Source of the DNA: Bacteroidales bacterium
GTDB lineage: Bacteria > Bacteroidota > Bacteroidia > Bacteroidales > UBA932
Assembly (NCBI GenBank): GCA_017478685.1
Contig: JAFVDC010000071.1
Coordinates: 1-9,615 of the forward strand
DNA: 9,615 nt
Direction of reading: 5' to 3'
In this document: positions 1,946 through 5,645 of the stretch, one piece after another
Position numbering within the stretch: position 1 is the first letter of the stretch
Layout of the letters: the number at the start of each line of letters is the position of its first letter
Program-made: the position numbers and the translations under genes
Notes under the pieces: model-generated
The model's input: only the letters and a program-made list of their open reading frames with translations
Told to the model about the DNA's origin: nothing
The model's database searches: none

Positions 1946-2947
1946 CTATGCGCCAAGCGTAGCGACCATCACGGCTTTAATGGTGTGCATGCGGTTTTCG
2001 GCCTCGTCGAAGACAATGCTGGCGGGGCTTTCGAAAACGTCCTCGGTTACTTCCACACCGTTGAGGCCGAATTTCTGGAACACGTCTTCTCCGACCTTGG
2101 TTTCGCGGTTGTGGTAGGCGGGGAGGCAGTGCATGAACTTGCACTTAGGGTTGCCGGTGGCGGCCATGAGCTCTGCGTTCACCTGGAAAGGCCTCAGGAG
2201 TTCGATGCGCTCCTTCCATACGGAATCCGGCTCTCCCATGGATACCCAGACGTCCGTGTAAAGGAAGTCGCAGCCCTTGACGCCGGCCTTAGGGTCGTCC
2301 GTAATGGTGATGCGTGCGCCGGTCTCCTGAGCAATCTTTCGGCACTGAGCAACAAGCTCAGGGGCGGGCTGGAGGGCCTTAGGGGCCACAATCCTTACGT
2401 CCATTCCCATTTTTGCACCGCCTACAAGGAGGCTGTTGCCCATGTTGAAGCGGGCGTCGCCAAGATATGCGTAGGACACCTCCCTCAGGGGCTTGTCTAC
2501 GTGCTCACGCATGGTGAGGAAGTCGGCCAGGATCTGGGTGGGATGGAACTCGTTGGTGAGGCCGTTCCAAACGGGAACGCCTGAATATTCGGCCAGTTCC
2601 TCCACGGTTTTCTGGGCAAAGCCGCGGTACTCTATGCCGTCGTACATGCGTCCAAGTACGCGTGCGGTGTCCTTCATGGATTCTTTTATGCCGATCTGGC
2701 TGCCGGTGGGGCCGAGGTATGTCACATGAGCGCCCTGGTCGTGGGCTGCAACCTCAAAGGCGCAGCGGGTGCGGGTAGAGGTTTTCTCGAAGATGAGGGC
2801 TATGTTCTTGCCCACAAGGCGGGGCTTTTCCGTTCCGGCGTATTTTGCCTTTTTAAGTTCTGATGCAAGGTCAAGCAGGTACTCAATCTCTTTGGGTGAG
2901 TAGTCGAGCAGCTTCAGGAAGCTGCGGTTTCTGAGGTTATATGCCAT
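1946..2947 (-). CDS. arcB: Ornithine carbamoyltransferase, probably catabolic (ArcB)
   Basis: 333 residues, the normal length for the family. Carbamoyl-phosphate binding is shown by STRTR (57-61) and HPTQ (135-138). The ornithine side shows DVWVSMGE (232-239, the SMG loop) and HCLP (273-276). In the catabolic direction the enzyme phosphorolyses citrulline to ornithine and carbamoyl phosphate in the cytoplasm. Two points favour a catabolic role: it is the last gene of an operon directly after carbamate kinase, 8 bp away, and many Bacteroidota are known to make arginine through an N-succinylornithine transcarbamylase instead (established for Bacteroides). The SMG loop argues against putrescine carbamoyltransferase. 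The ATG at 2945-2947 has an A-rich leader and no Shine-Dalgarno sequence. The alternative label argF cannot be excluded by sequence alone. Confidence 0.93.
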   Translation of the reverse strand: MAYNLRNRSFLKLLDYSPKEIEYLLDLASELKKAKYAGTEKPRLVGKNIALIFEKTSTRTRCAFEVAAHDQGAHVTYLGPTGSQIGIKESMKDTARVLGRMYDGIEYRGFAQKTVEELAEYSGVPVWNGLTNEFHPTQILADFLTMREHVDKPLREVSYAYLGDARFNMGNSLLVGGAKMGMDVRIVAPKALQPAPELVAQCRKIAQETGARITITDDPKAGVKGCDFLYTDVWVSMGEPDSVWKERIELLRPFQVNAELMAATGNPKCKFMHCLPAYHNRETKVGEDVFQKFGLNGVEVTEDVFESPASIVFDEAENRMHTIKAVMVATLGA

Positions 2948-2955
2948 AGTTTTTA

Positions 2956-3840: not shown

Positions 3841-4755
3841 TTAGTCTCTTCTAAGAGGTAGGGTAGAGCAGCGCAGGAGGCCGCCCATCTTTGAAATTTC
3901 ACGGTAGGGGACGGTTTCCACGGTCATTCCCCACTTTTCTTCAAGGTGCTTTTTCAGGCGCAGGAAATGCTCTTCCACCACAACGACTTCCGGCGAGATC
4001 GAGAAGATGTTGGAGTTCATCCAGTACATTTCCTCCGTGGTGAGTTCAAATGTGTTTTCCGGGCCGAACATCTCTACAAGGTGGTCTGCGTCCCTGGGGT
4101 TCAGGAAGCCCCTCTTATAGATGATGCACTTGTCCTGACCCACGGGCATGAACGTGCAGTCAAGGTGCAGGATGCCCTCGTACGGGTCTGTGTCGCTTTT
4201 CCTGAGGTTGAGCGGAATGATGCGCTTCCCGGGGAAAATCATCTTGAGGTAATCCAGCGCCAGACGGTTTGTACGGGCTGTTTTCACCTGAGGGTAGTCC
4301 TCAAAGGCGTACTGCCCAAGGAAAATGGTGTCATTGTAAAGCACTACGTCTCCGCCCTCCACGTGCACGGTTTCAGGCAGGTTGTATATGTCCTTGTAGT
4401 GGATTTGCCTGTAGATGCTGCCGTAGGCGTCAATTTCCTCCTGACGGTCCGGGATAATGTTGGAGACAATGATCTTGTCGTCTATCACAAAGCCCACGTC
4501 CCTTGCGAAAACCTGGTTGCAGTCAGGCACAAGGTCCGGTCTGTACACCGTGACGTCGTATTTTTTCAGGATGCGCTCAAAGGCGTTCATCTCATCTATG
4601 ATGTCCTTTTCTTCCGGGTACACTCCGTGAAGGACAGACTCATAGGATTTGCTGTCGAAGGTCTGGTCCAGGGTAGGCGTGCCGCCGTTTGAATAGGGCA
4701 GCCCCAGAACCACTTCCCTCAGGCGGGATGTCTCGTTTTGAACGTGCAGTTTCAT
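3841..4755 (-). CDS. Amidinotransferase-fold guanidino hydrolase (DDAH/arginine-deiminase-like), putative citrulline producer
   Basis: 304 residues from the ATG at 4753-4755, which overlaps the permease stop as ATGA. A longer reading from 4962 only adds a cysteine/histidine-rich stretch that is the permease gene read out of frame. The protein is of the pentein (guanidino-group-modifying) superfamily: FARD (83-86), HVEGGD (131-136), HLD (197-199) and a C-terminal catalytic cysteine in LLRCSTLP (Cys296). The full catalytic set is therefore present. At 304 residues it lacks the room for the extra helical domain of classical ArcA (about 410 residues) and is closer in size to dimethylarginine dimethylaminohydrolases. 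Those enzymes attack the guanidino carbon through a cysteine thiouronium intermediate and release citrulline. Placed just before arcC and arcB, it most simply supplies citrulline, from arginine or a methylated arginine (inference). Agmatine deiminase is less likely because the partner transferase looks like a true ornithine enzyme. Confidence 0.82.
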   Translation of the reverse strand: MKLHVQNETSRLREVVLGLPYSNGGTPTLDQTFDSKSYESVLHGVYPEEKDIIDEMNAFERILKKYDVTVYRPDLVPDCNQVFARDVGFVIDDKIIVSNIIPDRQEEIDAYGSIYRQIHYKDIYNLPETVHVEGGDVVLYNDTIFLGQYAFEDYPQVKTARTNRLALDYLKMIFPGKRIIPLNLRKSDTDPYEGILHLDCTFMPVGQDKCIIYKRGFLNPRDADHLVEMFGPENTFELTTEEMYWMNSNIFSISPEVVVVEEHFLRLKKHLEEKWGMTVETVPYREISKMGGLLRCSTLPLRRD

Positions 4756-5645
4756 ACCTTTTTTTGTTGAAGTTGCGTAAGATAAATGCCCACAAGGCCC
4801 ACTGTGAGGCCTGCCCACTGAACCCAGCTCAAGGTTTCCTCTCCAAAGATGAAGGCAAGGACGGCGGTGACAAGAGGCACCACTGCAAGGAACACGCTGG
4901 TGCGTGCAACGCCCAGTTTCCCAATGGCGTATGCCCAGCTTGTGTAGGCCGTGGCGCTGCAAAGGAGGGCCAGCGCAAGGATGGGGTAAATCACCTGCCA
5001 GCTGAGATAAAGGCCGGGCTCGAAGCTCTCAATTCCCTTTGTAAAGAACATGGGAAGGAAGAAAACGCTGCCGAAGAGGAACTGGTACATCACTATCACA
5101 GACGGCGAGTATTCGTCCGAGAGGGCCTTCGTGAAGGCAATCTGGCTTACCTCTGAGATTACGGCTATGAAAAGTATGCCTATTCCAAGCCAGAACATGG
5201 GGCCGGTCTGGGTGCCAGTGTAAGTGACTATCCACAGGCCCGCGATGGCTATGAAAACGCCAATCACGTTGAGCTTTGAGAAACTCTCCTTGAAGATGAG
5301 CATCCCCACTATCATTGCAAAAATGGGGTTTGTGGCTATTATGAGCGAGGTTATGGTGGGGGATTCCGTGAACTTGAGGCCGTAGGTTTCGGCGAGGAAG
5401 TAAATGAACGGCATGCAAAGTGAGAGAAGGAGGTATTTTATAAGGTCCTTCCTCTGGATTTTCATCTTCTGCTTTGTGGTAAGGTTGATGATCCAGAGCA
5501 GCACGCCGGCCATGCACATTCTTACGGGGACAAAGAATTCCACGGGAATCTGAAGTGCCAGAAGGCGGTCGGCCCATATGTAGGACATGGCCCACAGGGC
5601 AACAGTGAGCATGGCGCAGAGATATGCGGTTAAAGTTTTGTTCAT
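4752..5645 (-). CDS. EamA-family drug/metabolite transporter (DMT superfamily), first gene of the arc-like operon
   Basis: 297 residues, very hydrophobic, with two EamA repeats (about 1-140 and 150-290) and room for ten membrane helices. Typical DMT features are the LWAMSYIWADRLL start, PTITSLIIATNPIFA (96-110) in the first half, and the second-half counterpart LGVARTSVFLAVVPLVTAVLAFIFGEE (244-270, quoted here only for its pattern of helix, proline and terminal acidic pair). EamA proteins export or import small metabolites and amino acids. The cargo cannot be read from the sequence. Its position at the head of an operon for citrulline breakdown, with a 4-bp overlap into the hydrolase gene, suggests it moves the substrate or the ornithine product, in the place where ArcD usually occurs. 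A -7 box TATATTTG lies just 7 nt before its ATG, so the message may be leaderless or nearly so. Confidence 0.88.
   Translation of the reverse strand: MNKTLTAYLCAMLTVALWAMSYIWADRLLALQIPVEFFVPVRMCMAGVLLWIINLTTKQKMKIQRKDLIKYLLLSLCMPFIYFLAETYGLKFTESPTITSLIIATNPIFAMIVGMLIFKESFSKLNVIGVFIAIAGLWIVTYTGTQTGPMFWLGIGILFIAVISEVSQIAFTKALSDEYSPSVIVMYQFLFGSVFFLPMFFTKGIESFEPGLYLSWQVIYPILALALLCSATAYTSWAYAIGKLGVARTSVFLAVVPLVTAVLAFIFGEETLSWVQWAGLTVGLVGIYLTQLQQKKV

Follow-up and report, generated by a model that had tools for sequence, protein, structure and literature searches.

Can bacteria conserve energy by the arginine deiminase (ADI) pathway when the deiminase itself belongs to another family than ArcA? The question is raised by a 9,615-nucleotide stretch of DNA from a Bacteroidales bacterium (GCA_017478685.1, contig JAFVDC010000071.1, positions 1-9,615; hereafter the window), in which genes for an EamA (DMT) permease, a 304-residue pentein hydrolase (HYD, a name used here for both gene and protein), carbamate kinase ArcC and ornithine carbamoyltransferase (OTC) ArcB follow each other on the minus strand with intergenic gaps of -4, 3 and 8 bp. 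This order and spacing, described in an initial annotation of the DNA, are borne out by the coordinates and by family matches. We propose that the cluster probably conserves energy by converting arginine via citrulline to ornithine and ATP, with HYD as a nonorthologous stand-in for ArcA. HYD would deiminate free L-arginine (derived, as a guess, from peptides) to citrulline and ammonia; ArcB would phosphorolyse citrulline to ornithine and carbamoyl phosphate, from which ArcC would make ATP; and EamA would most likely export ornithine in lineages without the ornithine aminotransferase RocD.

Gene neighbourhood of the HYD family

The family assignment of ArcB is supported by scores above three OTC cut-offs (TIGR00658, 443 versus 281; PRK04284, 584 versus 515; PRK01713, 559 versus 545). 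ArcC is above the cut-off of PRK12352 (289 versus 266 bits) and below that of TIGR00746 (319 versus 358), and the permease scores 89 bits with TIGR00950, under its cut-off of 230. A genome scan with HYD recovered 27 loci: 18 in metagenome-assembled genomes (MAGs) of Bacteroidales/Bacteroidia (78-100% HYD identity to the window), one in a Dysgonomonas MAG (63%), seven in Chryseobacterium (59-61%) and one encoding a distant protein (L027, 27%). The host is named in nine of the 18 Bacteroidales/Bacteroidia MAG records and is a ruminant in all nine. In the nearest relative found, MAG UBA4230 (locus L001), all four proteins are 98-100% identical to those of the window. A search of 101 relatives of that genome gave 21 with HYD at 61% identity or more, four of them already known (this count leaves out four weak matches that are ArcA-type). 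The combined set from the scan and this search comprises 33 genomes with a rumen-type HYD. ArcC lies in the same cluster and direction as HYD in all 33 of them, and ArcB also in 32; the sole genome without ArcB in the cluster (L002) has a contig that ends inside ArcC. Given such counts, the order HYD-ArcC-ArcB is not due to chance. A strong ArcC is missing from the two HYD genomes outside the rumen-type set (G082 and G098). Across the 101 relatives, a carbamate kinase match scoring 190 bits or more was present in 19/21 genomes with HYD versus 25/80 others (Fisher test, 1.7e-6; this and the other Fisher tests count related genomes as independent, kinship being allowed for only in the independent-contrast test given below).

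A canonical arcA or arcD elsewhere in the genome, which by the initial annotation would speak against its proposal if it fed arcBC, was sought in the 33 HYD-bearing relatives and not found. A PF02274 search of 18 of them (G001-G018) revealed no ArcA, the only match being HYD (which in 3/18 was itself under the threshold); in G023, a full ArcA-type protein was detected in this way at 188 bits. A TIGR01078 search of the other 15 gave no ArcA and only weak HYD matches or none, and no ArcD (TIGR00905) was detected in any of the 33 genomes at E <= 0.001. Full-length ArcA-type proteins are encoded by 24/80 relatives without HYD (two of the 24 score near 103 bits) versus 0/21 with HYD (p 0.003, kinship ignored); ArcA-like proteins therefore do occur among these bacteria. 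Fifteen relatives encode both an ArcA-type protein and ArcC; in these, the two genes are on different contigs or, in G094, ~670 kb apart.

The alternative of a biosynthetic OTC was rejected. Full-length argG is missing in 32/33 rumen-type genomes (the gene in G026, at 232 bits, is under the cut-off of 268), and argH is above its cut-off in 1/33 (G026), with a 103-residue piece in G002 (101 bits) and no more than 61 bits in the rest. Because these genes are so scarce, the role of the OTC is likely catabolic, unless gaps in the MAGs mislead. In 30/33 genomes, no match other than the operon's OTC exceeds the OTC cut-off, and in G026, G028 and G002 none does; further, weaker transcarbamylases occur in G026 and G051.

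In a broader sample, HYD was found at E <= 1e-40 in 36/296 Bacteroidota genomes, L001's own included, and the neighbourhood count covered 29 of 37 further HYD loci. In 24 of these 29, a gene for CtlX lies within ~1.5 kb of HYD; the part of the source study considered here gives CtlX the putative role of a citrullinase, which would hydrolyse citrulline without forming ATP (PMC9007349). The two genes are neighbours in all seven Chryseobacterium loci, and the order in G082 is HYD, CtlX, RocD. Neither ArcC nor ArcB was matched at E 1e-8 in the 29 loci. The identity of the neighbour is supported by the motifs FPNN and HTN in all 11 CtlX proteins checked of 32 and by two scanned proteins that exceed the NF046062 cut-off (437 and 438 versus 334). 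As HYD lies beside CtlX in most loci elsewhere and beside ArcB here, its product is most likely citrulline; this argument, made by association, is the strongest functional one. We infer that ArcC and ArcB take the place of CtlX in the rumen group, adding ATP.

Several variations among the loci were also observed. The ArcC proteins encoded by the window and by L001, 99% identical to each other, are only 70-72% identical to those of the sister loci L003, L005, L007 and L017 and 9 residues shorter, unlike HYD (96-99%) and ArcB (94-96%) of these four loci; judged from these identities, an in situ replacement of arcC seems to have taken place. A single in-frame stop codon, reflecting either decay or an assembly error, interrupts ArcC of L012 (7514-8377); in MAGs G026 (C87) and G028 (C73), the match to ArcB is divided between two reading frames; and an aspartate/ornithine carbamoyltransferase-like gene (144 bits) lies just upstream of HYD in G051 (C37 6119-7018; L035 308-1387). 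The ArcA-type proteins of the 24/101 relatives (G030-G119) score 102-279 bits, under the cut-off of 489, and seven of the 22 relatives in which this score is at least 200 bits show no strong carbamate kinase.

EamA permease, RocD and the proposed fate of ornithine

An EamA ortholog is present in 23/33 rumen-type genomes, directly upstream of HYD in 19 and elsewhere in four. Orthologs were counted at 64% identity or more, a line set after seeing the results of a search limited to E <= 1e-30; below it, and therefore not counted, are a copy with 54% identity in G018, a genome with RocD, and the second copies in G057 and G014 (51-53%). RocD, counted at 89% identity or more (a limit that removes matches at 36% identity in G026 and at 18-20 bits in G070 and G071), was found in 6/33 genomes, within the cluster in five and elsewhere in G071; it is above the TIGR01885 cut-off for L008 and L018. 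The RocD gene lies between HYD and ArcC in G018 (L018) and G026 (L033). At L008 (HYD 97% identical to the window's), it is directly upstream of HYD, in the position that EamA has in the window. No genome of the 33 has both an EamA ortholog and RocD (Fisher test, 0.0002, kinship ignored). Most simply read, this mutual exclusion would mean that the cells dispose of ornithine either by export through EamA or by way of RocD, which suggests both the direction and the cargo of the permease. The initial annotation had let EamA move either the substrate or ornithine; the exclusion indirectly supports ornithine, and import of arginine, for which nothing here speaks, seems less likely.

Active site of HYD and competing activities

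HYD keeps eight ArcA-type catalytic and arginine-binding residues (N80, D86, R104, E133, R161, H197, D199 and C296), all of which are invariant in 20 HYD homologues down to 50% identity; the complete catalytic set ascribed to the hydrolase from the outset is thereby borne out. Alignment by hhalign of a profile of the 20 HYD sequences with ArcA-type proteins (probability 99.5%; 233 columns, 25% identical) paired these residues with N143, D149, R168, E205, R224, H260, D262 and C408, respectively, and removal of the compact relative L027 from the ArcA-type set left the pairing unchanged (97.6%, 217 columns). Structures of the Pseudomonas aeruginosa ADI mutants D166A, H278A, D280A and C406A, recognized by titles and chains, mark equivalents of the HYD residues; N160 and R185 of the same enzyme we take to be counterparts within the ArcA residue set N160/D166/R185/E224/R243/H278/D280/C406. 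Three of these (N160, R185 and R243, equivalent to HYD N80, R104 and R161) presumably grip the alpha-amino and carboxylate groups of the substrate. HYD also contains the motifs FARD and HLD, with both substrate-binding aspartates. In the consulted part of PMC9007349, these aspartates are kept by guanidino-acting penteins and are replaced in CtlX by asparagines (FTRD to FPNN, HLD to HTN); as FPNN and HTN are not present in HYD, HYD does not fit CtlX.

Searched against the PDB, the HYD profile including L027 had ADI 4BOF as its top match (59 bits), a lead partly inflated because the profile held the ADI-like L027. Without L027, 4BOF was still first (39 bits), followed by AgrE (29), human-type DDAH1 (28.4), other ADI (17-22) and P. 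aeruginosa DDAH (12-15 bits). The AlphaFold2 (AF2) model of HYD, with a predicted local distance difference test score (pLDDT) of 84.6, has a pentein fold. Overall, the aligned active-site residues lean to arginine deiminase, while the overall sequence scores low.

A number of observations count against this interpretation. HYD is far under every curated cut-off (Arg_dihydro, 37.4 of 450; ArcA TIGR01078, 34.7 of 489; dimethylargininase, 32.6 of 300 bits), is shorter than ArcA (304 versus ~410 residues), and is at most 23% identical to any of 50 listed structures; a single-sequence phmmer search of the PDB returned no arginine deiminase even at E 10. Comparison of the model in three dimensions left SxtG (28.4), ADI (28.3), HsvA (28.3), ArgZ (27.8) and GATM (27.8) tied, with P. 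aeruginosa DDAH at 25.1 and human DDAH1 at 24.0; the predicted structure by itself does not choose the activity. The pairing of R161 crosses a 10-column insert, and since the AF2 model is weak at residues 155-158 within this insert, the match of R161 rests on the alignment. With respect to neighbours, 5/29 further HYD loci have no CtlX in the stretch examined, CtlX was not seen in the stretches of L019, L027 and L048 (the L019 contig starts 225 bases before HYD), and the function of CtlX is itself putative. Full-length or near-full-length matches to the DcuC family (PF03606), a DcuC-like family being where we place ArcE, occur in 6/33 genomes on contigs other than the operon's. The EamA match of G014 bears an in-frame stop, 4/33 genomes have neither an EamA ortholog nor RocD, and in the tree, which offers only four independent contrasts, EamA was opposite to RocD in 3.8 on average (sign test, p 0.125). 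Finally, the genomes are MAGs whose completeness is not given, which makes absences soft.

Among other activities, the one that fares best is that of a true DDAH, which would convert methylated arginines of digested protein to citrulline and mono- or dimethylamine and feed ArcB and ArcC. HYD is similar to DDAH in length, is matched weakly by DDAH models (32.6 of 300 bits), has homologues named 'N-dimethylarginine dimethylaminohydrolase' in some JGI records among the matches listed, and has DDAH1 chains close behind ADI among the PDB matches of its profile (28.4 bits). A DDAH of the P. aeruginosa type was rejected, HYD having FARD/HLD instead of the signature FVED/HLK. The absence of this signature speaks only against that type, because a Bacillus relative scoring best with the Mycobacterium tuberculosis-type DDAH model also has FTRD/HLD. 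We regard a DDAH activity as unlikely. The ADI-like, ATP-forming operon of the initial annotation thus stands with respect to its ATP-yielding gene set, a hydrolase other than ArcA and the lack of ArcD, but the label 'DDAH-type' does not agree with residues that lean to ADI or with the missing FVED/HLK; methylarginine as the substrate found no positive support and is disfavoured.

An ArgZ/AgrE-like arginine dihydrolase, which would yield ornithine, CO2 and two ammonia and leave ArcB and ArcC to use citrulline from elsewhere, appears less probable still. It is in line with the top NCBIfam match of HYD (Arg_dihydro, 37.4 bits with a cut-off of 450), with the single-sequence phmmer search of the PDB (E up to 10), in which ArgZ and AgrE came first in a list that also held amidinotransferases and DDAH1, and with structures that tie with ADI. 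On the other hand, Asn71 of ArgZ (Ser in the N71S chain used as a marker) aligns with HYD Asp86, invariant in the 20 homologues, on account of which this identity was rejected, and the usual neighbour CtlX and the neighbour here would both act on citrulline.

That HYD is an amidinotransferase with incidental neighbours is very improbable: the name is used in some NCBI homologue records among the matches listed, and SxtG, HsvA and GATM tie with ADI as the top structural match, but in the rumen group the gene is kept together with ArcC-ArcB, and in most loci elsewhere with CtlX. Least credible is an agmatine deiminase-like enzyme acting on agmatine or another guanidine, with ArcB as putrescine carbamoyltransferase: operons pairing two such enzymes exist and the pentein fold is the same, but ArcB passes the OTC cut-offs and misses that for putrescine carbamoyltransferase (282 versus 500), no agmatine deiminase family model matches HYD at E <= 0.001 (the route was rejected on these family scores), HYD keeps N80, R104 and R161, presumed from the ADI counterparts to hold alpha-amino and carboxylate groups, and RocD lies within the cluster in 5/33 genomes.

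Returning to arginine deiminase, we incline, if only slightly, to a more general proposal, according to which HYD represents a second arginine deiminase family, compact and widespread in Bacteroidota, that would operate as a plug-in, giving ornithine without ATP beside CtlX and ATP beside ArcC-ArcB, with the leftover ornithine passing out via EamA or into RocD, alternatives that would have been repeatedly swapped.

Possible operon boundaries, flanking genes and known systems

The features of the locus are collected in Table 1. The box TATATTTG upstream of EamA fits the pattern TAnnTTTG, which we take to be the Bacteroidetes -7 consensus. Upstream regions were aligned from the window and from 11 genomes of the 19 in which EamA adjoins HYD; the box is present in 11/12 (L009 departs), and it is retained in L003 and L004, where the preceding DNA differs. 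A sigma-70 scan of 1700-6900 gave no minus-strand site (3 sites overall versus 3.5 in shuffles). The hairpin 3' of ArcB fits the end of an operon by its position; terminator-like sites in the scanned region are not above chance (6 versus 5.6 in shuffles). Together, the box and the hairpin are suggestive of operon boundaries, but only suggestive. We infer that the four genes form one operon and would be transcribed as a single unit.

Table 1. Features of the window, with coordinates on the 9,615-nucleotide stretch
Feature	Position	Strand	Basis
EamA (DMT) permease, 297 aa, proposed ornithine exporter	4752-5645	-	PF00892, 141 bits
HYD, compact pentein hydrolase, 304 aa, proposed arginine deiminase	3841-4755	-	PF02274; aligned ArcA-type residues; AF2 model; ATG at 4755, stop ends at 3841
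Carbamate kinase ArcC, 293 aa	2956-3837	-	PF00696; PRK12352
Ornithine carbamoyltransferase ArcB, 333 aa	1946-2947	-	PF02729/PF00185; TIGR00658, PRK04284, PRK01713
TATATTTG, Bacteroidetes -7-like box upstream of EamA	5653-5660	-	TAnnTTTG pattern
Terminator-like hairpin with T-rich tail, 3' of ArcB	1876-1897	-	hairpin scan; position fits operon end
Serine dehydratase alpha-type protein	498-1829		PF03313; TIGR00718, 31.7 of 243 bits
SDF-family transporter	5712-6866
MORN-repeat protein	7007-8434

The SDF-family transporter gene adjoins the operon and is co-oriented with it in L001, L002, L005-L007 and L017. It was rejected as an operon member, because its orientation is reversed in L003, L004 and L008, where the TATATTTG box nevertheless remains next to EamA. 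The serine dehydratase alpha-type gene is convergent with arcB. The MORN-repeat gene, located between deoD and the SDF transporter, is absent at that place in L001; its product is 99% identical in L007 (flanking genes 91% and 88%) and 83% identical in L017, and it is perhaps an exchanged cassette.

The cluster resembles the ADI pathway (arcABC with ArcD or ArcE) in having OTC and carbamate kinase genes beside that of the deiminase, in the presumed formation of ATP from citrulline and in the ADI active-site residues. It differs in its compact non-ArcA pentein, in the order HYD-ArcC-ArcB rather than A-B-C, and in EamA instead of ArcD, not found in the 33 relatives. With the CtlX system it shares the family of its hydrolase, CtlX genes adjoining HYD in most other Bacteroidota loci examined; the citrulline hydrolysis proposed there proceeds without ATP, which ArcC-ArcB here would yield, and HYD is not mentioned in the examined text of that study (PMC9007349). 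DDAH is similar in its pentein fold, length and Cys-His-Glu, but the P. aeruginosa enzyme has FVED/HLK versus FARD/HLD in HYD; ArgZ/AgrE is similar in fold, HLD and C-terminal Cys, with Asn71 versus Asp86; and amidinotransferases (GATM, StrB1, HsvA and SxtG) are similar in fold and tied structural scores, unlike in gene neighbourhood. In Mycoplasma hominis, according to the portion of PMC2751442 considered, a putative DDAH (MHO_2540) is encoded away from the arc genes (MHO_0630-0690), and asymmetric dimethylarginine (ADMA) gave no detectable growth. Among the matches listed in a search of open-licence PMC articles, no title on this operon was found, which leaves room for its having been published.

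What is new here is a compact deiminase-like family in ArcA's place, with partners that are exchangeable, and its presence in Bacteroidota; the chemistry is that of the known pathway, and methylarginine is not the novelty. A survey of 1281 species, in the part consulted, found arcABC in 0/80 Bacteroidetes, calling the pathway not a trait of that group, and assigned the deiminases of all surveyed arc clusters to one family, arcA (PMC5300872). If our proposal is true, the operon described here would be an exception to both statements, and a large family recorded as amidinotransferase or DDAH would acquire a testable role. The source bacterium, related to bacteria of the ruminant stomach, appears to make energy from arginine, which, if true, would matter for how arginine is lost and ammonia released in the rumen; the proposal also predicts clearly what an EamA transporter should do.

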